In this document: one piece after another, positions 26,606-52,011 of the stretch
Numbering within the stretch: position 1 is the stretch's first letter
How the letters are laid out: each line of letters starts with the position of its first letter
Source: Bacteroidota bacterium
GTDB lineage: Bacteria; Bacteroidota; Bacteroidia; Chitinophagales; Chitinophagaceae
Direction: 5' to 3'
DNA: 52,557 nucleotides
Assembly: GCA_013288945.1 (NCBI GenBank)
Contig: JABDAZ010000021.1
Location: 1 to 52,557 of the forward strand
Program-made: the position numbers and the translations under genes
The notes under the pieces: model-generated
The model's input: only the letters and a program-made list of their open reading frames with translations
What the model was told of the DNA's origin: nothing
Databases searched by the model: none

Positions 26606-26623
26606 TACCAGTATGAACTGGTA
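26606..26623. promoter_or_regulatory. Operator site 1 of the glycan locus, upstream of the M81 gene
   Basis: TACCAGTATGAACTGGTA is a 7+7 perfect inverted repeat with a 4-base centre, two changes from the ideal palindrome TACCAGTATATACTGGTA. Related copies lie at 28485, 50666 and 51858. It would cover the transcription start and so repress when bound. The likely ligand is the GntR protein encoded at 50774. Confidence 0.8.
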
Positions 26624-26661
26624 TAAAACCGGTTCGGTTTATCACGAATAATATTTTCAGG

Positions 26662-28218
26662 ATGAGGTTTATTATTTTTTTTGCAGGTTTATTATGCATG
26701 AATTTTATTGGCGTAAAACCGCTTATTAATAAAAATAATAAACAACTTCCGCGTATTGCAATCGCTGGCATTGCAATAGAATCAAGCATATTTTCTCCTG
26801 CAAGAACGAATGAAGAAGCTTTTCACGCAAAATATGGAGTTCAGGCTTTTTCTTCTTATCCATTTCTATCGATTGATTCTCCTTTGTATAATCGTGCAAC
26901 GTGGTTTCCAACTGTTGTCGCGCGTTCATTGCCTGGTGGGATTGTAACAAAAGAAGCTTATGAATCGCTTGTTGGAAAAACGCTGGATTCATTAAAACAA
27001 CACCTTCCCTATGATGGTGTTTACCTGGATATTCATGGCGCAATGAGCGTTGAAGGAATGGAAGATCCGGAAGCGGATTATATTGAACGCATAAGGAAAG
27101 TTGTTGGAAAAAATACGCTGATTTCTACTTCAATGGATTTGCATGGAAATGTTTCATTGCGCCTTGCAAAAAATTGCGATCTCATTACATGCTACCGCAA
27201 AGCGCCACATGAAGATGCGCTGGAAACAAAACAGCGTGCCATAACAGAATTATTGTCGCGCCTTGAAACTGGCAAAGGCAAGCCGCCTTATAAAGCTTAT
27301 ATTAATATACCCATTTTATTGCCTGGTGAAAAAACGAGCACACGCCTTGAACCTGCAAAAAGTGTATACGCTGCAGTTGCGCCCGCCGCAATGCAGGATG
27401 GTATTGTTGATGCATCTATTTGGGTTGGTTACGCATGGGCAGATGAAGCGCGGAACCACGCTGCAGTAATGGTTACCGGCGATGATAAAAATAAAGTTAT
27501 TAATACAGCAGAGCAATTGGCAAAACGCTTTTGGGATGCGCGTTTTGGGTTTTCATTTGTTGCGCCCGCGGCGAGTTTGGATGTTTGCCTCGATAGCGCG
27601 CTTGCAAGTAATAAGCGTCCTTATTTCATAAGTGATTGCGGTGATAATCCAACGGCTGGCGCGTCTGGCGACGTAACTTGGACATTAACACAATTATCAA
27701 AAAGAAAAGAATTTTCTGAAAATGGCCCGTCATTAATATACGCTTCTATTCCCGGTCCGGAATTGGTTGAACAGGCTATTGCTGCCGGAGTAAATGGACA
27801 TGTTGATGGATATGCTGGCGCAAAAGTCGATCACCGTTTTGCGGGGCCGGTACATATTTCCGGAACGGTTCAATCTATTTTGAAAGGCGATAAAGAAGCC
27901 GTAGCAGAAGTAGTTATAAAAATGGGTTCTATACAAATTATTGTAACAAAAAAACGCAAAGCTTACCGAACCGAAGGCGATTTTACCAAGCTTGGCTTAA
28001 ACCCGCGCAAGGCTGATATTGTAATTGTAAAATTGGGATACCTCGATCCTGAATTGTATGCCATGCGTGCAGAATGGATGCTTGCATTAACGCCTGGCGG
28101 CGCAGATCAGGATTTGGAAAAACTGACCTTTAAAAAAATAAACCGCCCAATGTTTCCTTTTGATAAAAATATGAAAGCGCCTGATTTGTCTGCAAAGCTG
28201 GTTCCTTTATCTGATTAA
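26662..28218 (+). CDS. M81-family metallopeptidase (microcystinase C/MlrC-like), secreted
   Basis: This 518-residue protein starts with a hydrophobic segment (FIIFFAGLLCMNFIGV) that should act as a signal or anchor. The body matches the M81 (MlrC) family: IAGIAIESSIFSPART at the start of the catalytic half, LPYDGVYLDIHGAMSVEGMEDPEAD with the Asp-x-His metal ligands, STSMDLHGNVS, and CYRKAPHEDALETKQRA. The C-terminal half includes SDCGDNPTAGASGDVTWTL and LGYLDPELYAMRAEWMLALTPGGADQDLE. MlrC cleaves linearized microcystin, but most homologues have other, unknown amide substrates. The promoter carries the same operator as susC, so it belongs to the glycan locus. It may trim peptide from a glycopeptide; that is inference. 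Confidence 0.87.
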   Translation: MRFIIFFAGLLCMNFIGVKPLINKNNKQLPRIAIAGIAIESSIFSPARTNEEAFHAKYGVQAFSSYPFLSIDSPLYNRATWFPTVVARSLPGGIVTKEAYESLVGKTLDSLKQHLPYDGVYLDIHGAMSVEGMEDPEADYIERIRKVVGKNTLISTSMDLHGNVSLRLAKNCDLITCYRKAPHEDALETKQRAITELLSRLETGKGKPPYKAYINIPILLPGEKTSTRLEPAKSVYAAVAPAAMQDGIVDASIWVGYAWADEARNHAAVMVTGDDKNKVINTAEQLAKRFWDARFGFSFVAPAASLDVCLDSALASNKRPYFISDCGDNPTAGASGDVTWTLTQLSKRKEFSENGPSLIYASIPGPELVEQAIAAGVNGHVDGYAGAKVDHRFAGPVHISGTVQSILKGDKEAVAEVVIKMGSIQIIVTKKRKAYRTEGDFTKLGLNPRKADIVIVKLGYLDPELYAMRAEWMLALTPGGADQDLEKLTFKKINRPMFPFDKNMKAPDLSAKLVPLSD

Positions 28219-28325
28219 TGTCATTAATAATTTTTTAAAAGGCATTATTAATAACTGATTTTTAAAACAACGCACGCAGGCAACTGCACTTTGTAAATGA
28301 TTTATAGTTTGAGCAATTAAAAACG

Positions 28326-28351
28326 GGGGCAATTTCTATTGCCCCTTCACT
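28326..28351 (+). terminator. Intrinsic terminator of the M81 gene
   Basis: GGGGCAAT, loop TTCT and ATTGCCCC form a perfect 8-bp GC-rich stem (28326-28345), followed shortly by a run of six T. It separates the M81 transcript from susC, so the two are independently transcribed under the same kind of operator. Confidence 0.8.
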
Positions 28352-28451
28352 TTTTTATGGCGCGGCAAAAATGATTTCAATCATTAATTCACGCAAAAAA
28401 TCACCAGTTTATTTTAATAAAAAACATCGTTTGCCTATTAATAAAAAATTT

Positions 28452-28482
28452 TTGCGGAAATAAAAAAATGTAATTAATATTG
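28452..28482 (+). promoter_or_regulatory. Promoter of susC
   Basis: TTG (28452-28454), 20 bases, then TAATATTG (28475-28482), one mismatch from TAnnTTTG. The operator begins 2 bases downstream. Confidence 0.55.
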
Positions 28483-28484
28483 TG

Positions 28485-28502
28485 TACCAGTTTATACCGG
28501 TA
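28485..28502. promoter_or_regulatory. Operator site 2 of the glycan locus, upstream of susC
   Basis: TACCAGTTTATACCGGTA matches the ideal palindrome at 16 of 18 positions. Both this site and site 1 are preceded by TTGTG and followed by TAA. It overlaps the expected transcription start of susC. Confidence 0.8.
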
Positions 28503-28566
28503 TAAATATCATCTTATTTTATTATTGCTTAAAGTAACCATTCAGTAAATTCCAAAACGATTAATT

Positions 28567-31551
28567 ATGCCAATGGAAAAATTGATTAAAAGAAGTTGTC
28601 TGCTATTTCTTCTTTCTTTTTTAACCTGTGCCGTTTTTTCTCAGAGCACAACAATTACGGGTAAAGTAACCGACGACAAAGGAACGCCGTTGCAAGGCGC
28701 AACCGTTACAGCAAAAGGCGGAGCCGCAAGGGGAACCACAACTGCTGCCGACGGAACTTACAAACTTGCAGTAGGCCCGAAAGTAAAAAGTATAACCATC
28801 AGTTCTGTTGGTTATGCAGAACAGGAAATAGCGCTGAAAGGCCAGACTGCCATCGACGTTTCATTAGTTATCGATTCCAGATCACTCAATGATGTTGTGG
28901 TTATTGGTTATGGTACTGCAAGAAAAAAAGATGTTACGGGCGCAGTGGCAAATGTTACTTCCAAAGATTTTAATATTGGTGTTATTAATAACCCGCTTCA
29001 GCAAATCCAGGGCAAGGTTGCCGGTTTGGTAATTACACAACCAGGCGGCGATCCAAATGCAAACCTGATCATTCGTTTGCGTGGGCAAACTTCTTTAAGC
29101 GGTGGCCAGTCGCCACTTATTGTGCTTGATGGAATTCCTTTGGATGATATTACTCAACTAAGCAGCATCCCACCGGGAGATATTTCTTCTTATGATGTTT
29201 TGAAAGACGTTTCTGCAACGGCCATTTATGGTTCACGCGGTGCAAATGGCGTTATTATTATTAATACAAAACATGGAAGTGCCGGCAAAGCAAAAGTTGA
29301 ATACAGTGGTTATGTTGCTACAGATAAACTTTCAAAAGAATTTGATTTATTATCAGCCAGCGAATGGCGCACTGCAGTAAAAAATATTCCTGGAATTACA
29401 CAATCAACGATTGATGGTTTAGATAAAGGCGCAAATACAGATTGGTTGAAAGCCATTACCCGCCGGGCTTACACGCAAACACACGATATCGCAGTTTCTG
29501 GTGGAACGGGAAGTTTTAATTACCGCGCTTCGTTGAATTATTCAAATCAACAAGGCATTGTAATCAATTCTGGTAAAGAACAAATCGGGCTTCGTTTTAA
29601 TGCACAACAAAAAGCATTAAACGATAAACTGGTTATCCAGGTTTCATTAAGTTCTACAGAAAATAACAGGAAATATACCGACTACAATATTTTCGATTAT
29701 GTAAATACAACGCCGCCAACTTACCCGGTTTATAATCCGGATGGAACTTACTATGGCTATTATGATTTTGATCAGCAAAATCCTGTTGCCCAACAAATGC
29801 TCGAAACAAATACGGGTAAAGAAACGCTTACATTAATGTATGCAAAAGTGGATTATGAAATTGTTCCCGGATTAAAATTGGGAACAACTGGATCGATTTC
29901 AAACTATAATTTACATTCAGAATATTTTCAGCCAACATTACCTGGCGTTGGAAACCTTAATAATGCAAGCCAGACAAGCGCTGATAAAGATTCAAAAAAA
30001 GGCGACATCCATATTAATTACACGCACGATTTTGGAAAAAGCAATATCAGCGCAACAGGCGTTTATGAGTATAATAATTTTATTACTGATAACTTTAATG
30101 CCAATGGCCAGAATTATTTGCTTGCATCTGAAACCGATAATAATTTAGGCGGAGGCAATCCGGCTTTAAACAGTATCAGTTCTTACAAAGACAATTATAA
30201 AATCATTTCTTTTCTTGCAAGGGTGGCTTATAATTATGATACAAAATATTATGTAACGCTTTCTGCAAGGCGTGATGGTTCTTCAAAATTTGGTACTGAT
30301 AACAGGTGGGCAAACTTTCCTTCTGCTTCAGTTGCCTGGCGCCTCACAAGAGAAAAATTTCTTAGCCATGTTTCATGGTTAAATGAATTGAAACTGAACG
30401 CAGGTATTGGCGTTGTGGGAAACCAGGATGCAATTACTCCTTATAATACATTATTAACGCTTGGTGGTTCGGGCCGTTATTTTGACCCGACAAGTTCAAC
30501 TTATATGTATCCGCAATCATATACTCCAAATCAAAATGCCAATCCTAATTTGAAATGGGAAGAAAGGCATGGTGAAAATATCGGGGTAAATTTTGCCATG
30601 TTCAACAGCAGGTTCTCTGGAAACATTAATGTGTTTAATGATAAAACAACAAACTTATTGTTTAACTATAATGTTCCGGTGCCTCCGTTTTTCTACGGAA
30701 CAATTCTTGCCAACGTGGGCAGCTTAACCAACAAAGGCGTAGAGTTACAATTGAATGCTGATGTAGTTAAGAAAGAAAATTTCTCATGGTCAATTGGTGG
30801 ACAGCTTACAACAGTGCATACGAGGATAACAAGCCTTGCAGGTTCTTATGATGGCTATAGCATTTCAACAGATCAGGTGCCTGTTGGTATTGCAGAAGGC
30901 CGCGGTTATGCAAGCAACAATATTACTTTCCTTAAAGTTGGTTATTCTCCTTATGTATTTTATTTACCAAGATTTGCAGGCTTGAGCAAAACAGTTGATC
31001 CGGGCACAAACAGCAACCAGCTTTATTATGCAGCTGACGGATCTAAAGTGGCTGATATTACTGCTGCAAAAAGTTATTATACTGATCCAACGCCTAAATT
31101 TACTTACGGTTTTTATAATACGTTCACTTATAAAAATTGGGGATTGAATGTTTTTTTCCGCGGAGTTTACGGACAAAAAATATTTAATGATTTCCGTTCT
31201 ATCGTTGATAATATTTCAAGGCTTCCGGGAAACAACGTAACTAAAGAAGCATTAACAAACGGAATTATCGGTTCACAAACACCATCTGATTTGTGGCTTG
31301 AAAAAGCATCTTACTTACGACTTGATAATGCAACTTTATCTTACAATTTCAAACATATAAAAGGAATTGAAAGCCTGCGTGTGTATGCAACCGGCAGCAA
31401 CTTGTTTGTGATAACGCCTTATAAAGGAATTGATCCTGAAATAAGAAATGGCGACAGCAACCAGGCATATATTGATACCAATGTTTATGGCGATGCTTTT
31501 TATCCAAGAAGCAGAACGTATACCGTTGGTGTAAACCTGACTTTCAATTAA
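28567..31551 (+). CDS. susC: SusC/RagA-family TonB-linked outer-membrane transporter
   Basis: This is a 994-residue outer-membrane oligosaccharide importer. A signal peptide (LLFLLSFLTCAVFSQ) is followed by a carboxypeptidase-regulatory-like domain (about 28-105, TITGKVTDDKGTPLQGATV), and then the conserved VVVIGYGTARKKDVTGAV linker. The plug domain contains GKVAGLVITQPGG, LIVLDGIPLDDI and SATAIYGSRGANGVIIINTK (residues 215-234). A 22-stranded barrel occupies the remainder, ending VGVNLTFN. ATG codons at 28567 and 28573 are both possible. With SusD 34 bases downstream it forms the canonical glycan-uptake pair. Its promoter carries operator site 2. Confidence 0.96.
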   Translation: MPMEKLIKRSCLLFLLSFLTCAVFSQSTTITGKVTDDKGTPLQGATVTAKGGAARGTTTAADGTYKLAVGPKVKSITISSVGYAEQEIALKGQTAIDVSLVIDSRSLNDVVVIGYGTARKKDVTGAVANVTSKDFNIGVINNPLQQIQGKVAGLVITQPGGDPNANLIIRLRGQTSLSGGQSPLIVLDGIPLDDITQLSSIPPGDISSYDVLKDVSATAIYGSRGANGVIIINTKHGSAGKAKVEYSGYVATDKLSKEFDLLSASEWRTAVKNIPGITQSTIDGLDKGANTDWLKAITRRAYTQTHDIAVSGGTGSFNYRASLNYSNQQGIVINSGKEQIGLRFNAQQKALNDKLVIQVSLSSTENNRKYTDYNIFDYVNTTPPTYPVYNPDGTYYGYYDFDQQNPVAQQMLETNTGKETLTLMYAKVDYEIVPGLKLGTTGSISNYNLHSEYFQPTLPGVGNLNNASQTSADKDSKKGDIHINYTHDFGKSNISATGVYEYNNFITDNFNANGQNYLLASETDNNLGGGNPALNSISSYKDNYKIISFLARVAYNYDTKYYVTLSARRDGSSKFGTDNRWANFPSASVAWRLTREKFLSHVSWLNELKLNAGIGVVGNQDAITPYNTLLTLGGSGRYFDPTSSTYMYPQSYTPNQNANPNLKWEERHGENIGVNFAMFNSRFSGNINVFNDKTTNLLFNYNVPVPPFFYGTILANVGSLTNKGVELQLNADVVKKENFSWSIGGQLTTVHTRITSLAGSYDGYSISTDQVPVGIAEGRGYASNNITFLKVGYSPYVFYLPRFAGLSKTVDPGTNSNQLYYAADGSKVADITAAKSYYTDPTPKFTYGFYNTFTYKNWGLNVFFRGVYGQKIFNDFRSIVDNISRLPGNNVTKEALTNGIIGSQTPSDLWLEKASYLRLDNATLSYNFKHIKGIESLRVYATGSNLFVITPYKGIDPEIRNGDSNQAYIDTNVYGDAFYPRSRTYTVGVNLTFN

Positions 31552-31585
31552 CAGCCCTTCTTTTAATTAATAAAATTCTATCGAT

Positions 31586-33217
31586 ATGTTACCATCAAAA
31601 TATAAAATTACAAAACTGGCTTTGCTGTTTGTTCTTGGCCTTTTTTCCTGTACCAAACTTGATACAAAAGTGTACAGTGTAGTTACAAATGAAAATTTCT
31701 GGCAAACGCCTGATCAAATTGCAGCAGGTATTGCGCCTGCATATGCACAGCTTACCGGCATTCCGGATGGCAATGTGTTTAGCCTTAATGAAGGATCTTC
31801 TGATGAAATGGTGGTGCCTGCAAGAGGTGCCGACTGGCTTGGAACCGGCGACTGGATTCAATTGTGGGAACATACCTACACTTCTGAAACACCGGAAGTT
31901 GTTGGTGCGTGGACAGATTTGTATGGCGGCATTGGTAAAATTAATTTCATATTAAGCATCGTTGATAACATCAGCCCGGCGCCAACCAACATTCAAAATA
32001 TAGATGCAGAATTAAAAACATTGCGTGCATTATATTATTATTGGGCGATGGATTTGTACGGAAATGTTCCGTTGGTTACTGATTTTAAAACCAATCCAAA
32101 TACAGTTACAAACAGTACAACACAACAGGTTTTTACTTTTATTGAATCTGAATTAAAAGCAAATATTGATTTGGTTTCGTCTGATGTAAGTGGTGCAACT
32201 TATGGCCGCGTTACAAAATGGATGGCTTTCAGTTTGATGGCTAAATTATATTTGAATGCAGAAACATACACTGGTACTGCACGCTGGAGCGATGCAATGG
32301 CTGCATGTGATTCTGTTATTAATTCTGGTAAATACAGTTTGCAAACAAATTATTTCGACAACTTTTCTCAGACAAATGATAACTCTGTAGAAAATATTTT
32401 TGTTGTGCCTTATGATAATATTAATATCGGCGGCAACAACAGGCAAACACAAACTCTGCATTATCAAAGCAATTTAAATTTTCAGTTAACCAGTTCTCCG
32501 TGGAATGGTTATTGCACCAATGCAGAATTTTATAGTCATTATGATACAACATCTGTTTACACTGTAAAAGGACAAAATACATACAGAAGTTTTCTTGATG
32601 CGCGCACAGGGCAGTTCTTAATCGGACAGCAATACAATGTTCCTTACACGTATCCGCCAAGCACAAACGTATTGTATTCAAGTACTGATCCTTCTTTAAA
32701 AATTTTAGATGCGCAAACTGGTAAGCCTTTAAATTTTTATCCAAACGTTACAGAAATCAGTAACCCGACAGATACATTTCGCACGGCTGGTTTAAGAAAT
32801 ATTAAATACTTTCCAAACCCCGGCACTTTTACAAACATGAATAATGATATCGCTATTTTTCGGTTGGCTGATATTTTCTTAATGCGCGCAGAATGTGCAT
32901 TGCGTCTTGGTTCTGCAGGTGCAATGGATCTTGCGTACGTTAATCAAATCCGCGAGCGCGCTTATGGTGGCGATGCATCGCATGATTGGACAATGGGCGA
33001 TCTTACATTAACGAATGTTTTTAATGAAAGAGCAAGGGAACTTGCATGGGAAAATTTCCGCAGGCAGGATTGCATCCGCTTTGGAACTTTTGGCAATGCA
33101 AGAACGCCAAATAAAGGCGTTGATCCAGATACACATTTACAAATATTTCCAATTCCATTGGCGCAATACCAGGCAAATTCTAATTTGAAACAGAACCCTG
33201 GTTATCCTTCTTTTTAA
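31586..33217 (+). CDS. susD: SusD/RagB-family surface glycan-binding lipoprotein
   Basis: This 543-residue lipoprotein has a signal peptide ending in LFSC (Cys 22). The SusD fold is shown by NFWQTPDQIAAGIAPAYAQL, the TPR-like segment IDAELKTLRALYYYWAMDLYGNVPLV, YGRVTKWMAFSLMAKLYLNAE, and the C-terminal DIFLMRAECALRLG and NERARELAWENFRRQDCIRFG. It caps the SusC barrel and delivers bound oligosaccharide. The spacing to susC and the family pairing leave little doubt; ligand specificity cannot be read from sequence. Confidence 0.96.
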   Translation: MLPSKYKITKLALLFVLGLFSCTKLDTKVYSVVTNENFWQTPDQIAAGIAPAYAQLTGIPDGNVFSLNEGSSDEMVVPARGADWLGTGDWIQLWEHTYTSETPEVVGAWTDLYGGIGKINFILSIVDNISPAPTNIQNIDAELKTLRALYYYWAMDLYGNVPLVTDFKTNPNTVTNSTTQQVFTFIESELKANIDLVSSDVSGATYGRVTKWMAFSLMAKLYLNAETYTGTARWSDAMAACDSVINSGKYSLQTNYFDNFSQTNDNSVENIFVVPYDNINIGGNNRQTQTLHYQSNLNFQLTSSPWNGYCTNAEFYSHYDTTSVYTVKGQNTYRSFLDARTGQFLIGQQYNVPYTYPPSTNVLYSSTDPSLKILDAQTGKPLNFYPNVTEISNPTDTFRTAGLRNIKYFPNPGTFTNMNNDIAIFRLADIFLMRAECALRLGSAGAMDLAYVNQIRERAYGGDASHDWTMGDLTLTNVFNERARELAWENFRRQDCIRFGTFGNARTPNKGVDPDTHLQIFPIPLAQYQANSNLKQNPGYPSF

Positions 33218-33235
33218 TTTTTATAAGTTTTTATA

Positions 33236-33274
33236 AAATATGCATTATCATACATTGTGTGATAATGCATATTT
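33236..33274 (+). terminator. Long perfect hairpin between susD and the next gene
   Basis: Bases 33236-33250 and 33260-33274 are exact reverse complements (15-bp stem, 9-base loop, core TGCATTATCA/TGATAATGCA). The left arm begins with A and the right arm ends in T, like a weak intrinsic terminator. It probably attenuates or stabilises the susCD message and reduces expression of the downstream genes. It spans an ATG at 33240, which argues against that codon as the next gene's start. Confidence 0.6.
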
Positions 33275-33284
33275 ATTTTATAAG

Positions 33285-39919: not shown

Positions 39920-39937
39920 CAGGCAAGAAAAATTTTA

Positions 39938-40888: not shown

Positions 40889-40891
40889 GAT

Positions 40892-41617: not shown

Positions 41618-41642
41618 ATTTATTTTTTGAAAATTTATAATG

Positions 41643-41670
41643 TATTAGCCAATAGCTATTAGCTTTTAGC
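41643..41670. repeat. Four tandem heptamers ending in TAGC or ATAGC
   Basis: TATTAGC (41643-41649), CAATAGC (41650-41656), TATTAGC (41657-41663) and TTTTAGC (41664-41670) follow each other without gaps, sharing AGC every 7 bp. They lie in the 115-bp gap between the glycosylasparaginase and cutC genes, the widest gap in the operon. Confidence 0.6.
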
Positions 41671-41732
41671 ACCAAGTTTTATTAATAAAGATTTTTTACT
41701 TTTTGTTTTTTCCTTTTTACTTAAAAAAAATT

Positions 41733-42758: not shown

Positions 42759-42785
42759 GGTTATCTTTTTATTAATAGTTGCAAT

Positions 42786-45377
42786 TTATTGTAATGGAAT
42801 ATCCATTGAAATTTGCTGTGTTGTTTTTATTTCTTCACTGCCGCCTTTTGCTGTCCAGCTTTCTTTATGTAAAACTATTTTTTCAGGAAGATTATTAACG
42901 TCATCAAATGCAAGGTTTAATTTTGCCGATGTTCCTTGCGCATTTACTTCAAGCGATAAATTTATTAATCCGAATGGTGTGCGTATTCCATTCAATTGCG
43001 TTTTTGCGCCAGCCTTTGCCCATTGTTTTGGTATTGCCTGAAACAAATGCAATTCTTTGCCACGATCAAATTCAATCATGTGAACCGTCATTCTTATAAA
43101 CTCTGCGCTCGCCCAGTTGTGCGGCATATCGCCTACTTCATCATTTCCTTTTCCAACTGGTTTTTGTTCTTCGCGCCAAACCATTGTTGGTGATGAGTGA
43201 TTGGCAAAATCATATAACAATTGCGGAATGCCCTGCGTTTTTCCAAGCCATAATAATGCATGCGCATAAAATGAAGTGAAGTAAGACCAGATGCCATCTT
43301 TCATCCAACCAGTATTAATGACCAAACCTTCAGCGCGGTGGTCTGTAAGCATATCAACTGTTTCAGCTGCCCACTGGTGTGCTTCTGTATTATCATCATA
43401 AATTTTTCCGGGATAAACAGATTGGCAAAATGCCCACTGTCCTCTTTGCGCGGCATAATTTCCTTCGTTATTAATCATCACAGGCAGATACGTATTTCCT
43501 TTTTCATCTTTGCGAATATCTTTTCTTGCCTTATTCATAAAGTTTAAAAAGAATTGATCATAATCTTTTTGCCATGTTGCTGCCTGATCATTTTTTCCCA
43601 ACCATGTTGCTGCTGATATTGCCCATTTCATTCCACTTAAACACCATTCTGTATTTGAATAATCATTGCCATCCTGAATGCCGCCATCAACATTTCCATT
43701 GGGTATTAATCCATAATATGGTTTTGTTGAATCCTTCATTGCAAGGCCGCGCAAATAATTTATTCTTTTTATACAACCTTCAATCACGCTCCAGTTTTCA
43801 TTCATCCATTTTTTATCTTGCGTTAACATGGCGTGGCGAACCAGCATAAAAGGAACGAGTCCATTCTCTTTATGAAAGGTTGTAATCATTTCAAACCCGC
43901 CATCTTTTAATTGTAAACGTGTAAGATAATCTATGCAACTGCGCACATCTTTTACATAATTAAGCATCGTTCCAACTTCCAATAAAAAACTTCCATCTGC
44001 AAGCCAGAGGCCGCGATAAATAGTTGGCCCAACATGAAAAGCTTTGTTGCCTTCACGAATATCTCTTGATTGAAAAATATTTCGCAAGCTTGAAACAACC
44101 ATATCCTGAATGCCTGAGTCAGGAACGCTGATTGCTTTTGCTGAAGGGCAATTTTTTTGCCACCAGTTTTCAGCAATTTGTTTTTGCTCTGCAGAAATTG
44201 TTGCTGATGGTTGATAAGAAGAATTTGAATTAAAAAAACGGCTGATGGTTACCACTGCTTGTTTTTGTTCGCCAGCTTTTAAATTAACAGGCATTAATGC
44301 AATGGTATAATGATCCGCTGAATCAAGCGCTGGCGCTTGTTCTGCAAGCGATGAAGAAAGCCGAGTGTATTCATCCAACTGAATATAGTTTGCAGATTTT
44401 TGCAGTTTATCAATGCCTGCATATTTAATAACAGGAGAAAAAACTTTATTAACAGCAGTATTGTTTTTTAAATTTATTAATAAATGATAACGCCTTTCAG
44501 GCATGCCAACATTTGCGCATTGTACATATAAAACAGCATTTTTATTTTGGCTGCCACTAATAATTTCTGTCGCAGACGGCGCTTGATCATTAAACATCCA
44601 TAAACCATTTACGATCGCATTTCTGTCTTTTGCGCCGGGCATATTTGTTACCACAACAATCAATTCACCATCCTGGTCAGCATCTTTAGAATCGAAAAAA
44701 TAAACGCCGGGAGTTTTTGCACCAAAGTCTTTTACAGGATCAATATCTTTTTGTTCAGCACCTTCAACATGCACGCGCATTACGCGTTGGCCTGCTTCTT
44801 CCCATTTGCCTTCGCAAAAACCCAATGCAATTTTATGTGATGATCCGGGCGTAACTTTTATATGAAATTCAATCAAGCCTTCACCAGACAAACCTTTCTG
44901 TCCTTCTGCAATATCATTAAATGCTGCATCACATTTTATTTTTGGTTTCGACCAATTTCTTTGTGCAAGCCTGCTATCAAACCGTACGATACTATTTAAT
45001 TTTTCCGGCGCAGGAATTTCTAAAAAAGCATCTTCAGTAATTGTTATACCATCGCTTTCTTTAATCGTATGCGTCATTGGGTTTGATGCTGAACCCAGAT
45101 GCTGGCTTTTCCAAACAGATGGCGTTTTGCTATCGAACATTACAGAAAAAGAAAAATCGCGCGGGCCTTTTTTATAACCATAATCACCAAAAATTTCTCC
45201 TTCACGACCAACCAATGTTTTTACAGGATCATCCGGCAAACACAAAAGCGATTGCCACCACGGAACACTGTATCGGTGATCAACAGCAAGATTTTCACTT
45301 TGCGAAAAAGCAATTGAACGTGAAAAAAAGATCGCTGCAGTAAACAATACGAGCTTCGAAAATTTTTGTAAAACCAT
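42786..45377 (-). CDS. Secreted six-hairpin glycosidase-like protein, family not recognised
   Basis: This 863-residue protein has a signal peptide (LVLFTAAIFFSRSIAFSQ). Residues about 30-430 form beta-rich domains. Residues about 440-790 look like an (alpha/alpha)6 barrel: FHVGPTIYRGLWLADGSFLLEVG, RSCIDYLTRLQLKDGGFEMI, GGIQDGNDYSNTEWCLSG, DDNTEAHQWAAETVDML and PHNWASAEFIRMTVHMI mark its helices. A C-terminal beta domain ends the chain. The fold resembles clan members such as GH78, GH63 or GH15. Acidic residues in LADGS, NDYSNTEW and PHNWASAEF are candidates for catalysis. I cannot assign a CAZy family. It lies between the sugar porter and glycosylasparaginase genes, so it likely trims the imported glycan in the periplasm. 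Confidence 0.7.
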   Translation of the reverse strand: MVLQKFSKLVLFTAAIFFSRSIAFSQSENLAVDHRYSVPWWQSLLCLPDDPVKTLVGREGEIFGDYGYKKGPRDFSFSVMFDSKTPSVWKSQHLGSASNPMTHTIKESDGITITEDAFLEIPAPEKLNSIVRFDSRLAQRNWSKPKIKCDAAFNDIAEGQKGLSGEGLIEFHIKVTPGSSHKIALGFCEGKWEEAGQRVMRVHVEGAEQKDIDPVKDFGAKTPGVYFFDSKDADQDGELIVVVTNMPGAKDRNAIVNGLWMFNDQAPSATEIISGSQNKNAVLYVQCANVGMPERRYHLLINLKNNTAVNKVFSPVIKYAGIDKLQKSANYIQLDEYTRLSSSLAEQAPALDSADHYTIALMPVNLKAGEQKQAVVTISRFFNSNSSYQPSATISAEQKQIAENWWQKNCPSAKAISVPDSGIQDMVVSSLRNIFQSRDIREGNKAFHVGPTIYRGLWLADGSFLLEVGTMLNYVKDVRSCIDYLTRLQLKDGGFEMITTFHKENGLVPFMLVRHAMLTQDKKWMNENWSVIEGCIKRINYLRGLAMKDSTKPYYGLIPNGNVDGGIQDGNDYSNTEWCLSGMKWAISAATWLGKNDQAATWQKDYDQFFLNFMNKARKDIRKDEKGNTYLPVMINNEGNYAAQRGQWAFCQSVYPGKIYDDNTEAHQWAAETVDMLTDHRAEGLVINTGWMKDGIWSYFTSFYAHALLWLGKTQGIPQLLYDFANHSSPTMVWREEQKPVGKGNDEVGDMPHNWASAEFIRMTVHMIEFDRGKELHLFQAIPKQWAKAGAKTQLNGIRTPFGLINLSLEVNAQGTSAKLNLAFDDVNNLPEKIVLHKESWTAKGGSEEIKTTQQISMDIPLQ

Positions 45378-45418
45378 AAAAATTTATTTAAAAAAATTAA
45401 TACAACTGATTTATATTA

Positions 45419-46801
45419 TTAATGTCCCGTTACAAATATTTGTTCCATTTCTTCCAGTGTTTTTCCTGTTGTTTCTTTCACCACTTTCCAGCAGAAAAAG
45501 AAATTTATAATACTAAAAAAAGCAAACATCCAGAATGTAAATGCTGCCCCCGTTTTTGCAAGCAGCCACGGAAAAAATTGTCCGACCATCCAAACTGCAA
45601 TCCATAATGCAAGCACACAAACAGACACAGCTTTCACTCTTAATTCAGTTGGAAACATTTCATTAATAATGATCCATGTAATTGGCCCGAGTGAAAATGC
45701 AAAACATGCAATAAAAAGAAGCATTAATATCAGCAACGTTATTCCCTGCGTGTTGCCGGTGTAAAATAAAAACCCGCAACCTGCGAGAGAAAGTACAATG
45801 CCTGTTAATCCAACTTTTAATAAAAGTTTGCGGCCATATTTATCAGCCCATTTTATAGCAACGATGGTGAATAATAAATTAACCGCGCCAATAATCACTT
45901 GAAAAACCAATGCATTGCTGCTGTTGATTCCTGCACTTTCAAAAATGCCAGGGCCATAATAAATGATGGCATTAATGCCACAAAATTGCTGAAGAACAGC
46001 CAGCACAATTCCTATTACTAATGGAAGGCGGATAGATGGATCCAATAAAGAACTTTTTTTAATTTCTGCTTTTTTTGCTGCTGATGTAATGTCTTCAAAC
46101 TCTTTCTCAGCAAGCAATTGCGGCCTTACTGTTAATAATATTTTTTTTGCTTTTTCATTTTTGTTAATAGATACCAACCATCGCGGGCTTTCAGGAACCC
46201 ATGCAAGCATCAATACAAAAACCAATGATGGAGCAGACATGACTAAAAACATCGGCCTCCATGTTTCGGTATTAAAAAACCATATAGCAGCGCTACTGTT
46301 AAAATGATGTTTCGCAACAAATAATAATAATGCATTTGAAAAATAGGCAAGCAAAATTCCAATGGTAATGGCAAGTTGATACCATGCAATCATTCTTCCT
46401 CTTTTATCTGCTGGCGCAAATTCTGCAATGTACATGGGAGAAATTACCGACGCCATGCCAACACCAATTCCACCCAATAATCTTGCGATTATTAATAATT
46501 GTATGGAAGAAGAAAATGCACATCCAATCGAAGAAAATAAAAACATGCAACCGGAAAGTATGATTGTTTTTTTTCGCCCAACACGATCGCTCAAAATGCC
46601 CGTTGCAAAAACGCCGAGAATGCAACCAAGCAAACCGCAACTAACCAACCAACCTTGCATATTAACATTGAGAGAAAATTGTGCAGTGATTAAATTAATC
46701 GCGCCGGAAATTACAGCTGTATCGAAACCAAATAATAATCCCCCGATGGCAACAGCCATGCAGATATAATTCGTTTTAAATGATGTTCCGGAAGCGTTCA
46801 T
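45419..46801 (-). CDS. MFS sugar porter (XylE/GLUT-like)
   Basis: This is a 460-residue inner-membrane sugar transporter with 12 predicted helices. Sugar-porter signatures are present: GGLLFGFDTAVISGAI in helix 1, GILSDRVGRKKTI between helices 2 and 3, RLLGGIGVGMASVISPMYIAEFAPADKRG in helix 4, VPESPRWL after helix 6, QQFCGINAIIYYGPGIFE in helix 7, and GPITWIIINEMFPTELR in helix 10. It would move a monosaccharide released by the periplasmic enzymes, plausibly mannose or glucose, into the cytoplasm by proton symport. It is fifth in the nine-gene operon. Confidence 0.94.
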   Translation of the reverse strand: MNASGTSFKTNYICMAVAIGGLLFGFDTAVISGAINLITAQFSLNVNMQGWLVSCGLLGCILGVFATGILSDRVGRKKTIILSGCMFLFSSIGCAFSSSIQLLIIARLLGGIGVGMASVISPMYIAEFAPADKRGRMIAWYQLAITIGILLAYFSNALLLFVAKHHFNSSAAIWFFNTETWRPMFLVMSAPSLVFVLMLAWVPESPRWLVSINKNEKAKKILLTVRPQLLAEKEFEDITSAAKKAEIKKSSLLDPSIRLPLVIGIVLAVLQQFCGINAIIYYGPGIFESAGINSSNALVFQVIIGAVNLLFTIVAIKWADKYGRKLLLKVGLTGIVLSLAGCGFLFYTGNTQGITLLILMLLFIACFAFSLGPITWIIINEMFPTELRVKAVSVCVLALWIAVWMVGQFFPWLLAKTGAAFTFWMFAFFSIINFFFCWKVVKETTGKTLEEMEQIFVTGH

Positions 46802-46839
46802 ATAACAAGCAATTTTTTAGTAATCATTAATAAAATTTA

Positions 46840-47220
46840 TTAACGCTTATAATCATCATCATACCGTTTAATATCTTCTTGTTGCCAGTTTCCAAACGCA
46901 ACTTCGAGTACGCGTATTGGAGTTTCACTTTCATTGGTTAATCGATGCCGTTCATTTGCAGGAATCCAAATTTGATCGCCAGCTTTGTATTCACTAATAT
47001 CATCACCCACTTGCACGATTGCTCCATTATCTATCACTATCCACAATTCTGCACGGCCAGTATGTGATTGTAAACTCAATCGCTGGCCGGGCAAAACAGT
47101 CATTAAGCTTACGGTGCAATCTTCATTATTTGCATATTGAAAAAAAGTGCCCCATGGCCTTGAAACAAAGGATGGCTCTGGCTTTTCCGCGGGAATAGGT
47201 TTTGTATTATATTCTGACAT
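46840..47220 (-). CDS. Cupin of the type II mannose-6-phosphate isomerase kind
   Basis: This is a 126-residue single-domain cupin. SRPWGTFFQYANNEDCTVSLMTVLPGQRLSLQSHTGRAELWIVI (in two parts around residues 19-62) and DQIWIPANERHRLTNESETPIRVLEVAFG match the C-terminal mannose-6-phosphate isomerase domain of ManC/AlgA-type proteins, standing here without a guanylyltransferase part. It would interconvert mannose-6-phosphate and fructose-6-phosphate. It lies directly downstream of a full class I isomerase, so the two appear redundant or act on different sugar phosphates. The first metal ligand pair is reduced to one His (QSH), which may affect activity. Confidence 0.8.
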   Translation of the reverse strand: MSEYNTKPIPAEKPEPSFVSRPWGTFFQYANNEDCTVSLMTVLPGQRLSLQSHTGRAELWIVIDNGAIVQVGDDISEYKAGDQIWIPANERHRLTNESETPIRVLEVAFGNWQQEDIKRYDDDYKR

Positions 47221-47241
47221 GAAAATAATTTTATTAATAAT

Positions 47242-48996
47242 TTATGGTTTGATTCTTACAAATGCTTTAATCGTTGCACATTGTTTTCCTGCACTTTCGC
47301 CGTGCGTATTAATGGTGTATTCTTTTACACTTGCAGGCACAACAAAAGTTTCTGCATAGTGAATAACAAATGGTTCAAACAAATTTTCAGGGCTTTCAAC
47401 AATTGCTTCGCGGCCTTCAATCAGGTTGAGTACGTTCACACTTCCGTTTGTATGATGCAAAACTTTTTTTGTGAACCAATGCCTGCGTGTTTCAATAAAT
47501 TCCCTTTCATGCAATCCCGTTTTTTCTTCATTCCATCCATCGCCGGATGCGATTGGTTCAATTATATCTTTTAATTCTTTTGCAGTTTTTTCAGGGGTAA
47601 AACTCCAGTCAATTACTTTTTCGCCATGCGCGATATTAATAGGCCGCGGTTTTCCATCAAGCCCCATGCGGCCCCAATCCCAAAGTTTGAAAGTAAAAAT
47701 GTATGGCGTTGCGCTAATCTCTAAAACCATGCTATCCTTGCCGGAACAATGAACCGTTCCCGCAGGTATTAATATGTGATCATGTTTTTTTATGTCCCAT
47801 TTTTTTACAAATTTTTCTGCTTCAAAATGGGTTCCATTTGTATTTGCATTTTTCAACTCATTAATCATTTCTACAGGAGAAGTATCATTTTGCAATCCTA
47901 AATAAACATGTGCGCCTTCTTTGGCATCAAGTATATAATAACTTTCATCTTGTGTGTAATGAATGCCAAATTTTTCCTGCGCATATTCAGTTGTTGGATG
48001 CACCTGCAAACTCAAATTGCCACCTTCAATAGTATCCAAAAAATCAAACCGGATTGGAAATTCATCACCAAATCTTGCCTGCACTGCATCGCCTAATAAT
48101 TTTCTTGACTCTGCAAAAACAAGATTAATAGAAGGCGTTTCAAAAATGATTTCATCCATTTGTAATAACAAACTATTTTCTTCCGGCACACAATCAAAAC
48201 CCCATGCAAAATTTTTTTCTGACATATCAAGCCCGACATATGTTTTCATCCATTGTCCGCCCCACGGGCCAGGATCAAAAAATGGCACCAGCCTGAAAGG
48301 CTGTGTGGTGGCTTGTTTCAGTGCGCTCATTAATGTTTCGCCGGAAATTATTTTAGGATTGTTTTGCTTCGTTGTATCAATAATCAAATCCCATTTATGC
48401 ATTAATGTTTTTTTGTGGCGATCGCAAACGCGCCAGTCAACAAAGAATGCTTGTTTATATTGAAGTGAAGCTTTTGCATTTTTATTATCAACACCAAGAT
48501 TGCTGGTTTCATTTCTGCGGAAACGAAGTTGTGCTTCCCAACGCGGCATATCAAAATAGATAATCAAACTTGCATTTGGGTTTATTAATGAAGCACCAGT
48601 TCCGAAAATATAAATCGTATCAGCATCTTCTTTATCAATATTTTCCTGTGTAGTTTTTATTTTTGATTGATCAAAAAACTGGATCAAATTAAGCCGCGTT
48701 AAATAACCGAAAACTTCATCATCAGTTACGTCAGGATAAACCATTTGTTTGATGTAATCTTCTTCGTGCAAACAATCTTTTGAAAAATAAAATTTACCCT
48801 TTATATATTTTTGAAGTTGTTGTATTGTTTCATTTTCAAATACGCCAGGATAACATTCTATCACCACAACTTTTTTTGTAGATGATATTTTATCGATGCG
48901 ATTATTAATCACCGCGCATACTTGTTCCCAGCCTTCACCGAAATCAGTAAATTCTTTTATTTTAATGGAAGGAAATTTATCGTAGTTAGAAATCAT
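47242..48996 (-). CDS. manA: Class I mannose-6-phosphate isomerase with N-terminal kinase-like domain
   Basis: This is a 584-residue protein in two parts. Residues about 1-205 resemble a uridine-kinase or cytidylate-kinase-like P-loop fold (KKVVVIECYPGVF, IYIFGTGASLI, SLIIYFDMPRWEAQLRFRR), but the Walker A sequence GxxGxGK[ST] is missing, so it is probably not an active kinase. Residues about 215-584 form the isomerase: FFDPGPWGGQWM, LSLQVHP, DESYYILDAKEGAHVYLGL, LIPAGTVHCSG and VLEISATPYIFTFKLWDWGR. QVHP, the Glu of DESYY and the His of GTVH would bind the metal. Ordinary class I enzymes are 300-400 residues, so the N-terminal domain is an addition. It sits between the ROK kinase and the cupin genes. 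Confidence 0.85.
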   Translation of the reverse strand: MISNYDKFPSIKIKEFTDFGEGWEQVCAVINNRIDKISSTKKVVVIECYPGVFENETIQQLQKYIKGKFYFSKDCLHEEDYIKQMVYPDVTDDEVFGYLTRLNLIQFFDQSKIKTTQENIDKEDADTIYIFGTGASLINPNASLIIYFDMPRWEAQLRFRRNETSNLGVDNKNAKASLQYKQAFFVDWRVCDRHKKTLMHKWDLIIDTTKQNNPKIISGETLMSALKQATTQPFRLVPFFDPGPWGGQWMKTYVGLDMSEKNFAWGFDCVPEENSLLLQMDEIIFETPSINLVFAESRKLLGDAVQARFGDEFPIRFDFLDTIEGGNLSLQVHPTTEYAQEKFGIHYTQDESYYILDAKEGAHVYLGLQNDTSPVEMINELKNANTNGTHFEAEKFVKKWDIKKHDHILIPAGTVHCSGKDSMVLEISATPYIFTFKLWDWGRMGLDGKPRPINIAHGEKVIDWSFTPEKTAKELKDIIEPIASGDGWNEEKTGLHEREFIETRRHWFTKKVLHHTNGSVNVLNLIEGREAIVESPENLFEPFVIHYAETFVVPASVKEYTINTHGESAGKQCATIKAFVRIKP

Positions 48997-49017
48997 CTTT
49001 TGTTTCTTTTATTAATA

Positions 49018-49968
49018 TTAATCCTGCATTTTATTTTCCAAACAATACACAACGCCGAGAATGCCGGCGTCATTTAAAAGTTTGCTTGCTTTAATTTTTA
49101 CATTTCCCCATGGCGTCCATGCATGCGCTTTTACTTTTGAAGAAATATATGGAATGATATCTTCACCACTATTCATCACGCCGCCACCGAGCACAACAAT
49201 TTCCGGATCATATGCATGAATGAGATTGATAATTGTTGCAGACCAAACATCCAGATATTCCTGCCGCAAACGAAATGCGAGTATGTCATTATTTTTTGCT
49301 GCAAAAAAAAGATTTGCAAAATCATGTACATCATTTTTTGCAAGTACGCTTTCTTCCAGTTCTTTTGATCCCATTAATCTTTCTTTCAAACTCCATGAAG
49401 ATCCATAAGCTTCTGCGCAACCAATATTGCCGCAATTGCATGTGCGGCCGTTATATTTGACGGACATGTGCCCACCGAGAACGCCGGCCTGAAAATGTTT
49501 GCCTCTTAATAATTTTCCTTCGATGATTGCAGATGTTCCGATGCCAGTTCCAATCGTCATTACAACAAGATTGTCGGTATCTTTTCCTTCACCAAATTTC
49601 CATTCGCCAACAGCAGCCATTCTTGCATCATTATCCATGTAAAAATTGGTATGCCAATTTTGTTTTACCCATGCATGCATATCAACCGAAATGGCATCAT
49701 CATATTTTTGATTGGTTGATAAAATTTTATTTGAAACAGGATCAACAAGCCCTGGAAATGCAAGCGCAATTCCATTAAGATTTGATTCATTAATATTATT
49801 ACTGAACAATAAATTATTTATTTCTTTTTGAAGCGTTGGCAAATTAATATGAAGTCCGTTTGCAGAATTTGCAGGAATAATTTTTTGTGAAATAATATTG
49901 CCTTCGGCAACTAGTCCAAGTTTTACACGCGTGCCCCCCAGGTCAATGCCAACCGAGTATTTTTTCAT
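49018..49968 (-). CDS. ROK-family sugar kinase
   Basis: This is a 316-residue cytoplasmic kinase of the ROK family. It has the ATP-binding loop GIDLGGTRVKLGLV (residues 7-20), the catalytic-region MDNDARMAAVGEW (Asp 114), IGTGIGTSAI, and the structural zinc site His 167 with CNCGNIGC (Cys 177, 179, 184). There is no helix-turn-helix, so it is an enzyme and not a repressor. Glucose, mannose, fructose and N-acetylhexosamines are the usual substrates. Next to two isomerases, it would phosphorylate the sugar entering through the MFS porter. The start lies 20 bases after the glucose-6-phosphate isomerase stop. Confidence 0.92.
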   Translation of the reverse strand: MKKYSVGIDLGGTRVKLGLVAEGNIISQKIIPANSANGLHINLPTLQKEINNLLFSNNINESNLNGIALAFPGLVDPVSNKILSTNQKYDDAISVDMHAWVKQNWHTNFYMDNDARMAAVGEWKFGEGKDTDNLVVMTIGTGIGTSAIIEGKLLRGKHFQAGVLGGHMSVKYNGRTCNCGNIGCAEAYGSSWSLKERLMGSKELEESVLAKNDVHDFANLFFAAKNNDILAFRLRQEYLDVWSATIINLIHAYDPEIVVLGGGVMNSGEDIIPYISSKVKAHAWTPWGNVKIKASKLLNDAGILGVVYCLENKMQD

Positions 49969-49988
49969 ACAACAGCAATATAATTTTA

Positions 49989-50555
49989 TTAATCCTTCAC
50001 CCGATCAATTAATACCGGCGTACCATTTTCTTCAACCAATATTTTTGAAAAACCATGCTGGCTTATAATATCATAATCGTGCCCTGCATCCGAAGGCCAG
50101 CAAGCGCCAAAAGAAAAAATTCCGCTTCCGGTATTTGCTGTGCGGTGCGCAATGTATCCATCAATATAATGAAGGCTGCCCGGGTACATTTTTTCAGCCC
50201 ATGTTTTGCGGTTTTTATCCATTAATATCAGCATGCCTTCGCCTTCAATTCCCCAATAAAATTCTCCTCTGTCGGCAAGTTTATGAAAGTGGCCTTTGGT
50301 CATAAAATATTCGTTGCCAACCATGCCTGGATGAAGGTGCGTGATGCCAAAAAACAAACCACCGGTTGTGCCATCTTTTACAGGAAGATAAGATTCAACT
50401 TCATAAACAATTTTATCAGGAGGTGCTGCAGCAAAGGCGGCTTCATCATTAAAAATAGAAGACAAATCGCTGATTTTTCTAACTGCTTTATCAATTTTTT
50501 CACCGGTAAGGTGTTTGCCTGTAAAGCCCGTTTGCGGTACCAAAATGTTGTTCAT
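49989..50555 (-). CDS. Cupin-type glucose-6-phosphate isomerase
   Basis: This is a 188-residue cupin isomerase of the archaeal type (PF06560), unrelated to the ordinary Pgi fold. The core THLHPGMVGNEYFMTKGHFH leads into the metal site, with His 89, His 91, Glu 98 and His 137. This is one residue offset from the numbers I recall for the Pyrococcus enzyme. It interconverts fructose-6-phosphate and glucose-6-phosphate. It is the first gene of the nine-gene minus-strand operon and follows a perfect TATATTTG -7 element and operator site 3. Two cupin isomerases in one operon is unusual. Confidence 0.92.
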   Translation of the reverse strand: MNNILVPQTGFTGKHLTGEKIDKAVRKISDLSSIFNDEAAFAAAPPDKIVYEVESYLPVKDGTTGGLFFGITHLHPGMVGNEYFMTKGHFHKLADRGEFYWGIEGEGMLILMDKNRKTWAEKMYPGSLHYIDGYIAHRTANTGSGIFSFGACWPSDAGHDYDIISQHGFSKILVEENGTPVLIDRVKD

Positions 50556-50637
50556 TCTTGTGAAATTCTGGTTTTGGTTATTTGCATAAAGTGGCTGAAA
50601 GAGTAGCAGTAAAAGTTTTCAGCAACCGTTTCTTTTA

Positions 50638-50645
50638 CAAATATA
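50638..50645 (-). promoter_or_regulatory. -7 element of the nine-gene operon promoter
   Basis: Read on the minus strand this is TATATTTG, a perfect TAnnTTTG, 82 bases before the start of the glucose-6-phosphate isomerase gene. No clear TTG was found 19-21 bases upstream; operator site 3 begins there. Confidence 0.5.
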
Positions 50646-50665
50646 ATAGAATTATTTAAAAAACG

Positions 50666-50683
50666 TACCAGTATATACCAGTA
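50666..50683. promoter_or_regulatory. Operator site 3 of the glycan locus, upstream of the nine-gene operon
   Basis: TACCAGTATATACCAGTA matches the ideal palindrome at 16 of 18 positions and contains GTATATAC, the GntR-family core (GTMTAKAC). Unlike sites 1 and 2 it lies upstream of the -7 element, about where the -33 region should be. Confidence 0.8.
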
Positions 50684-50773
50684 TATTATTAAAATATTTT
50701 TCCGATTTTTTGGAAAGAAAATGAGCGAACGTTTATTATTAATAAATCTTATTAATAACTGTTGCGAAGTATT

Positions 50774-51793
50774 TTAAAAAGAATTTCTGTCGATCATTAT
50801 AAAAGGGTTTTCCCTAATTTCCCGCTTGCCGGAAACAGCCAGTTCTGCAATAGATTTTCCCATGGCTGCAAAGTCTGTGGTAATAGTTGTAATGCCATCT
50901 GCAATCACGCTTTTTAAATTGGTTTCATTGTAAGATATGACGCCAATATCTTGCCCAAGCTTCCAGTTTTTTGATTTTGCAGTATTAATAATATCAACAA
51001 GATGGTTGTCATCAATAACTATAAAGGCATCTTTTTTCTGGATATCATCTGTATCGATAGCATTTTTTACACCGGTAAAAATGATATTCTTTTTCGAAAA
51101 TTTATTAAAGCCTGAAATAATATCTTTCGTTTGCAACGTATCAGGAAACAGCAAAAACAATCGTTTATATTTTGCCACCAAATGTTCCGAAGCGGTTAAT
51201 ATAGAATAAATATCTTTTTCAAAATTCTGGTAAATTCCGGAATATGTTTTTTTGTATTCTTTGTATCCAACGTCTAATAAAAAAGTATTTTTTGGATCAA
51301 GCTTTGATAAAATGCGTGAAGTTTGCTCATGCACTTCGGGCATAATAATAAAGGTATTATAATATGCTGCTTGCTCATTAATAAGCGTTTCAAACATCTT
51401 AATACTGTGGTGGTGAAAATAAATATCGAGCGTAGAAGTTTTTGGCAAATGGTTTCTCAGCGCATTAAAAAGTGTTTCTTTATAAGGAGTAAATGTGCTG
51501 AACAATAAAAAAATATTTTGTTTTTGGCGGGTTTGCGTACCGGTTACATAATATCCTTTTCCCGGGATAGAATCAATAATTCCGGAGGCACGGAGTTCAT
51601 TATAGGCTGCAAAAACCGAACCTCTTGCCAATGAAAACTGAGCGGCGATATGATTAACAGAAGGCAATTTATCATCCCTGTTTAAAATACCATTTTCAAT
51701 ATTTTTATAAACGGATTGAACTATTTGTTTATAAACAGGAAGTGCGAGTGAAGCATCCAGTTCAATAAGAGAATCGATTTGTTTTTTGCTCAT
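50774..51793 (-). CDS. GntR-family regulator with LacI/periplasmic-binding-protein-like sensor domain
   Basis: This is a 339-residue transcription factor. Residues about 15-85 are a GntR winged helix (LPVYKQIVQSVYKNIENGIL, LPSVNHIAAQFSLARGSVFAAYNELRASGII with the KGYYV wing). Residues about 92-335 form a sugar-binding domain like that of LacI and AraR proteins (FIIMPEVHEQ, FLLFPDTLQTKDIISGFNKF, DIGVISYNETNLKSVI, AAMGKSIAEL). This is the AraR-type combination, in which an incoming sugar releases the regulator from DNA. It is the likely ligand for the four 18-bp sites at 26606, 28485, 50666 and 51858, the last being upstream of its own gene. It is separated from the nine-gene operon by 218 bases. 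Confidence 0.92.
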   Translation of the reverse strand: MSKKQIDSLIELDASLALPVYKQIVQSVYKNIENGILNRDDKLPSVNHIAAQFSLARGSVFAAYNELRASGIIDSIPGKGYYVTGTQTRQKQNIFLLFSTFTPYKETLFNALRNHLPKTSTLDIYFHHHSIKMFETLINEQAAYYNTFIIMPEVHEQTSRILSKLDPKNTFLLDVGYKEYKKTYSGIYQNFEKDIYSILTASEHLVAKYKRLFLLFPDTLQTKDIISGFNKFSKKNIIFTGVKNAIDTDDIQKKDAFIVIDDNHLVDIINTAKSKNWKLGQDIGVISYNETNLKSVIADGITTITTDFAAMGKSIAELAVSGKREIRENPFIMIDRNSF

Positions 51794-52011
51794 GCCGGAT
51801 AATATCCCTTACTGAGATAAAGTTTTCGTAAAAATAAGGATAAAGTTTGTTATTTAAAACGGGTATATACTGGTATAGGTTGCGGCTTGTATAATTTTTA
51901 TTAATGTCAATTCTATTTTATTAAAATGACAGTGCGTTAAAAGCGAACCAAATTATAAATTAGAGCAGCAACTTGTAATGCACTATCTAATGATTCGGTA
52001 ACATGGAATAA
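51794..52011. other. Leader and intergenic region upstream of the GntR gene
   Basis: It holds operator site 4 at 51858-51875 and AT-rich sequence. No TAnnTTTG element was found for the regulator gene, and no open reading frame of interest is present. With the pseudogene that follows, this fills the right end of the window. Confidence 0.6.
51858..51875. promoter_or_regulatory. Operator site 4, upstream of the GntR gene
   Basis: Read on the minus strand this is TACCAGTATATACCCGTT, matching the ideal palindrome at 15 of 18 positions with the GTATATAC core intact. It lies 65 bases before the regulator's start and suggests autoregulation. Confidence 0.7.

Follow-up and report, generated by a model that had tools for sequence, protein, structure and literature searches.

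A GntR-family protein with AraR-type architecture as the predicted local repressor of 15 glycan-utilization genes in a Chitinophagaceae bacterium

The stretch of DNA analysed here (the window, 52,557 nucleotides) is contig C21 (JABDAZ010000021.1) of a draft genome of a Bacteroidota bacterium of the family Chitinophagaceae (GCA_013288945.1), which comprises 3,031,694 bases in 116 contigs and is 72.9% complete. It encodes a GntR-family regulator (gntR), and four 18-bp operator-like sites precede the M81-family gene (26662, plus strand), susC (28567, plus strand), a nine-gene operon beginning with a cupin-type glucose-6-phosphate isomerase (GPI) gene (50555, minus strand) and gntR itself (51793, minus strand), as an earlier note on this DNA had proposed. 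The GntR protein is very probably a local repressor of a glycan-utilization regulon, relieved by a sugar of the pathway. The earlier note had also assigned about 14 genes of the glycan locus to this one regulator; the predicted control is supported, and the count is 15.

The four sites are located at 26606-26623 (operator 1, plus strand, before the M81-family gene), 28485-28502 (operator 2, plus strand, in the susC promoter), 50666-50683 (operator 3, minus strand, before the nine-gene operon) and 51858-51875 (operator 4, minus strand, in the gntR promoter, predicting autoregulation), and they differ from the palindrome TACCAGTATATACTGGTA by 2, 2, 2 and 3 mismatches, respectively. No fifth copy with up to 3 mismatches was found in the window (0.00 expected from 100 shuffles), and the genome-wide check set beforehand with the same limit returned the same four sites only from the incomplete draft, while the reversed control pattern gave 0. 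When a scoring matrix was built from 21 sites of relatives, with the window sites excluded, the window sites scored 26.5, 22.6, 22.2 and 19.9 bits and took ranks 1-4, and the next window position reached 4.8 bits. The description of the sites as a palindrome holds within 2-3 mismatches, but none of them is perfectly palindromic, and the asymmetric sequence TACCAGTATRTACCNGTW fits better, with no mismatch at sites 3 and 4, one at site 2 and two at site 1. It is fitted without mismatch by 10 of 15 aligned sites from the window and relatives (14 of the 15 counts come from a scan limited to 2 mismatches; the susC site of genome G178, with 3, was counted by eye). Since the two halves of most sites differ, one reading TACCAGTA and the other TACCNGTW, the perfect palindrome is an idealisation of the operator. 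The GT/AC positions are strongly conserved in the site matrix, and site 3 is oriented relative to its gene opposite to the gntR sites. Six places in the genome match TACCAGTATRTACCNGTW with at most 2 mismatches, namely the four sites, one on contig C4 (within an open reading frame (ORF), 12.6 bits) and one on contig C33.

The regulator (50774..51793, minus strand) has 339 amino acids, with a GntR winged helix-turn-helix (HTH) domain at residues 21-83 (PF00392, E 3.7e-11) and a LacI-type ligand domain at residues 253-323 (PF13377, Peripla_BP_3, E 4.5e-8). Members of the HutC subfamily carry a UTRA effector domain behind the HTH. UTRA was not among the Pfam matches of the regulator, which were GntR and Peripla_BP_3 only, and this does not fit the HutC subfamily; MocR-type models cover about residues 4-102 only, and no aminotransferase domain was found in Pfam, which does not fit the MocR subfamily. 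According to the accessible part of a published description, a GntR HTH joined to a GalR/LacI-type C-terminal domain defines the AraR subfamily (PMC4494728), and the domains predicted for the regulator, both HTH and ligand domain, give it this architecture. The earlier note compared the operator core with the consensus GTMTAKAC: the core GTATATAC, as it stands in sites 3 and 4, agrees with it, but in the accessible text this consensus is printed for the HutC subfamily (PMC4494728), while the regulator is of AraR type. AraR of Bacillus subtilis is likewise described there as a chimera of a GntR HTH and a GalR/LacI-type domain, with an arginine in the recognition helix (PMC4494728); the window regulator and its relatives show ARGSVF in eight of nine aligned sequences and an invariant R57 in all nine. 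AraR differs in controlling genes for arabinose and related sugars in Firmicutes. Its operator sequence also differs from the operator here, and its solved HTH matches the window regulator weakly (E 2.1e-5). In the AraR subfamily, the recognition-helix arginine contacts a G of the operator and a sugar relieves DNA binding; R57 may have this role here.

A set of 195 genomes of the family, including the source genome, contains seven other regulators at 57-72% identity and one at 41%, most others listed being at 27-37%. The operon order gntR-GPI-ROK-ManA-PMI-porter-863-AGA-CutC-GyrI is kept around the orthologues as far as the contigs extend, with the loss of the gene for an 863-residue protein in G007, of AGA in G178 and of ROK in loci L151, L153, L154 and L157; in G064, only gntR and cutC are visible near one another. 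The palindrome scan found a site before gntR in six of the seven orthologue genomes (one with 4 mismatches), and in the seventh, G064, the asymmetric pattern picked up the gntR site, with 2 mismatches. Genome G149 (39-42% identity, helix SRDT) was considered as a possible carrier and dropped; its gntR has no site within 4 mismatches.

The pairing of regulator and site was followed in 80 listed loci, out of 115 relatives found in named genomes, seven of which coincide with genomes of the family set, and which include Parafilimonas terrae, Flavihumibacter petaseus, Mucilaginibacter, Chitinophaga barathri, Pedobacter, Parapedobacter and Niabella. All 80 were scored for the best match to the asymmetric motif in the 300 bp preceding the regulator gene. 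Among loci whose regulator has the recognition helix ARGS(V/I)F, 23 of 25 carry the motif with at most 2 mismatches upstream of gntR, some of these 25 being closely related (e.g., L149 and L152) and thus not independent; among the paralogue loci (L167-L220), 0 of 54 do, the best match having 4 mismatches. L165 (42% identity, helix SRDT) reaches 3 mismatches at best. The pairing of recognition helix and motif is sharp, and the link between regulator and sites claimed in the earlier note gains support from this co-occurrence. In Pedobacter, Parapedobacter and Niabella (L158-L163), the same regulator type adjoins genes for SIS-domain, MFS, alpha-N-acetylglucosaminidase (NAGLU) or alpha-L-fucosidase proteins; because these are other glycan genes, the regulator type may be reused for other glycan loci in these genera.

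Footprinting also supports the susC and M81 genes as targets. SusD orthologues (62-70% identity) were found in five of eight genomes searched by protein, and all five have a site before susC, which in G095 and G170 lies on a different contig from gntR. In two Mucilaginibacter loci (L151, L154), the M81 gene stands directly before gntR with a site of its own and a third site precedes a SusC of 64% identity; in the whole genomes, these gntR, M81 and susC sites are the sole places within 1 mismatch. The M81 site is present in three of the five genomes in which an M81 orthologue was seen (the window and the two Mucilaginibacter, but not G095 and G170); apart from G095 and G170, the other six of the eight genomes searched gave no M81 match. 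Three further susC promoters with a site (L251, L260, L278) were reached via the motif itself and therefore confirm the layout, not the incidence.

Operator 3 is a different case, as no second site was found between gntR and GPI in any of the 17 named loci where both genes are visible (best 6 mismatches). The gntR and GPI matches are 6-30 nt apart in those loci, while in the window the order is the same and the distance is 218 nt, the gap holding the extra operator and a TATATTTG box that begins 38 nt from the operator start. As the 17 loci have no counterpart, site 3 is, by this sequence comparison, an addition of the window genome, and gntR and the GPI operon seem to run as two units in the window and as one unit in the relatives.

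Promoters of Bacteroidota have a TTTG element at -33 and TAnnTTTG at -7, against which the position of the operators can be read. In all 11 susC promoters seen, exactly 2 nt separate the operator from the end of a preceding box that reads TAATATTG, TATTATTG or TATAATTG (one mismatch to TAnnTTTG); the 11 include the window promoter (TAATATTG) and the three found through the motif; a TTTG lies 17-21 nt further upstream in seven of the eight promoters measured. The window M81 promoter has the same layout, with a TTTG 19 nt upstream of a CATATTTG box and operator 1 starting 2 nt after that box. The M81 sites of the two Mucilaginibacter are without the susC-type box layout. The 20 gntR/GPI promoters scanned all have a TAnnTTTG/A box downstream of the operator, the first box being 23-39 nt from the operator start, compared with 14% of shuffled downstream stretches and 3 of 20 in the 60 nt upstream. 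Both arrangements, the operator at a constant place over the start and the one at varying places around -33, would suit a repressor.

From the sites, their uniqueness and conservation, their linkage to the regulator type and the gene families behind them, we infer binding, repression, effector and substrate as follows. A dimer of the GntR protein would bind the operators, 18-bp sequences with the consensus TACCAGTATRTACCNGTW. Where the operator lies across the predicted transcription start, as at susC and M81, it would block initiation; at gntR and the catabolic operon, where the operator lies at or just upstream of the predicted -33 element, it would block the binding of polymerase. A sugar made by the pathway would bind the LacI-type domain and release the protein from DNA, so that uptake genes, breakdown genes and the regulator would be induced together. 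Glycosylasparaginase would split N-acetylglucosaminyl-asparagine (GlcNAc-Asn), and the ROK kinase with three phosphosugar isomerase-type proteins would lead to fructose 6-phosphate. These enzymes and the sugar porter point to an N-glycan-type glyco-asparagine as the probable substrate.

Two distinct operator placements, both of which are present in relatives, could also mean that the regulator acts with two signs, repressing at susC and M81, where the start is covered, and activating at gntR and the catabolic operon, where the site lies upstream of -33. We regard this as unlikely, as the -7-like box of the 20 gntR/GPI promoters stands anywhere from 23 to 39 nt after the operator start, a variation which disfavours an activator at gntR; moreover, the distance is only 23-27 nt at L150, L155 and L157, which places the operator between -33 and -7 and fits blocking (L157 has a second box at 45 nt). 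Chance, or a repeated element with no regulatory role, has a negligible probability as the origin of the repeats: no point in its favour was found, 0.00 copies are expected, the control gave 0, and footprinting contradicts it, the same promoters keeping the site in other genera, including Mucilaginibacter.

The sites might instead belong to another factor, either a paralogue of the GntR protein or a regulator with a global role, with gntR merely one of its targets. The family has many paralogues at about 27-37% identity, and in most genomes that lack the regulator there are a few matches with up to 3 mismatches; however, the site goes with the ARGS-type gntR loci and not with the paralogue loci in the counts above, only one regulator of the family was found in the incomplete source genome, and the off-locus matches examined lie mostly within ORFs, which leaves this explanation very improbable. 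In detail, 13 of 13 off-locus palindrome matches examined lie inside ORFs, comprising all those of G007, G095, G170 and G178, two of seven in G051 and one of eight in G137. A candidate for an extra target common to G051 and G137 (2 palindrome mismatches) was rejected, as it lies inside a 1064-aa ORF in both. The asymmetric pattern gave another 23 matches in G000, G007, G051, G095, G170 and G178, of which 21 are in ORFs (18 in ORFs of at least 150 codons and three in ORFs of 82-110 codons) and two are in no ORF of 60 codons. As a separate observation, G006 (8.0 Mb) has 27 palindrome matches across many contigs (3 for the reversed control), its closest regulator being at 35% identity; perhaps this paralogue has a similar, more widely used site.

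Several points weigh against local repression by the GntR protein as set out here, or against parts of it. Two loci with the ARGS(V/I)F helix lack a good site, L141 having 3 mismatches (weak) and L162 having 5 (no site). A site is absent before the M81 orthologues of G095 and G170 (68-69% identity), where the best matches have 5 and 6 mismatches. At L158-L161 and L163, where the operators mostly lie between divergent genes, no -7-like box of the TAnnTTTG/A form follows the operator. Palindrome matches with up to 3 mismatches number 3-10 per genome in carriers of the regulator (source genome included) and 0-27 in non-carriers, and since non-carriers hold as many, a match by itself proves little about a target. 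The match on contig C33 (L222:1501-1518, 17.8 bits) is intergenic, between divergent DUF1543 and PSCyt1/PSCyt2 genes, and could be a further target; it is not conserved before the DUF1543 orthologue (best 5, 6 and 7 mismatches in the 3 relatives, of 7 searched, that have the gene), and we keep it as a candidate only. About a quarter of the source genome may be absent from the draft. Pfam assigned none of the 15 regulon genes to a known family of mannosidases or endoglycosidases, which makes the substrate less certain. Finally, the same regulator type has genes for alpha-N-acetylglucosaminidase, fucosidase and SIS-domain proteins as neighbours in Sphingobacteriaceae, so a sugar other than a mannose-type one, perhaps an amino sugar, may be the effector.

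On the plus strand, the regulon comprises the M81/MlrC-like gene (26662..28218; DUF1485 and MlrC_C in Pfam), susC (28567..31551; SusC/RagA TonB-dependent receptor, TIGR04056, 720 bits), susD (31586..33217; SusD_RagB and SusD-like_3) and two genes for FG-GAP/ASPIC-UnbV proteins (33240..36617 and 36614..39919; Pfam), the last four standing behind operator 2. On the minus strand, the nine-gene operon runs from the cupin-type GPI (49989..50555; PF06560) through a ROK-family sugar kinase (49018..49968; PF00480), a 584-residue protein with a mannose-6-phosphate isomerase domain at about residues 230-457 (47242..48996; solved structure 1qwr, E 6.7e-15), a cupin like the C-terminal domain of mannose-6-phosphate isomerase (PMI-type, 46840..47220; PF01050), a sugar-porter MFS transporter (45419..46801; PF00083, TIGR00879), the 863-residue protein (42786..45377), glycosylasparaginase (41733..42758), a CutC-family protein (40892..41617; PF03932) and, as the last gene, a GyrI-like domain protein (39938..40888; GyrI-like/Cass2, weak match). 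The fifteenth gene is gntR. The susC/susD pair next to glycan-degrading genes (TIGR04056, SusD_RagB, glycosylasparaginase) marks this as a polysaccharide utilization locus. The asparaginase-2 protein matched solved glycosylasparaginases with 429 bits and isoaspartyl peptidases with at most 132.5 bits, so hydrolysis of GlcNAc-Asn is its likely activity; its translated N-terminus contains SSRRKFLKAS, which we take to resemble a twin-arginine motif. In the 584-residue protein, some 220 N-terminal residues belong to no family, and most orthologues align over nearly the full length. Directly before the M81 gene, a gene at 24717-26504 (plus strand) encodes a serine beta-lactamase-family hydrolase with TPR repeats; at up to 3 mismatches, it lacks a separate operator.

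The 863-residue protein, whose N-terminus looks secreted, has no family in Pfam or NCBIfam, and no convincing match turned up in Pfam or among solved structures. A model from an alignment of five orthologues was poor (mean predicted local distance difference test (pLDDT) score 52), and Foldseek with this model returned GH94, GH116, GH65 and GH78 proteins at template modelling scores (TM-scores) near 0.2, a weak resemblance of the modelled fold to (alpha/alpha)6 glycosidases or phosphorylases that serves as a lead only. The protein is rare, being found only in the source genome and as one weak match (21%) in 298 sampled genomes of the order, a sample that evidently did not include the carriers found earlier.

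The closest described regulon found is that of ManR (BT2103), a GntR-family regulator of Bacteroides thetaiotaomicron whose predicted targets, in the accessible part of Ravcheev et al. 2013 (PMC3878776), are SusC/SusD, mannosidases and the conversion of mannose. By the same text, control of a SusC/SusD operon would go together with the uptake of mannose into the cytoplasm and its route to fructose 6-phosphate, which the regulon here may resemble. In contrast, ManR controls alpha-mannosidases, while the regulon here has none of a known family (the 863-residue protein being without a family), and it includes glycosylasparaginase, CutC, M81 and FG-GAP proteins, which are differences from ManR as described in that part (PMC3878776). 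Behind the sites here are SusC/SusD, a sugar porter, a ROK kinase and isomerase-type domains, with predicted sugar specificity and control. By analogy, the two regulons would work alike. FucR (BT1272) of Bacteroides is also a local GntR-family sugar regulator in Bacteroidota, but according to the accessible text it controls a single operon of transporter and cytoplasmic enzymes (PMC3878776).

The regulatory logic is of a known kind, and the regulon is a new example, no description of which was found in the open-access literature among the matches listed. Six papers contain a 12-base word of the motif each, and judging by their titles they all deal with other subjects. It is conceivable, although we would not favour it, that the locus represents a dedicated pathway of environmental Bacteroidota for glyco-asparagine (the N-glycan core) not yet described, with the 863-residue protein as a new family of glycoside hydrolase or phosphorylase and with CutC, M81 and the paired FG-GAP/ASPIC proteins taking part in glycan salvage. 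For an entire glycan locus of environmental Bacteroidota, the analysis names the regulator, the operator and the genes in a form open to experiment. The predicted co-regulation links CutC, M81, the FG-GAP/ASPIC proteins and the enzyme-like 863-residue protein to one glycan pathway, suggesting functions for them, and the ARGS helix with its site, against other helices without it, offers a clean case for studies of AraR-type specificity.

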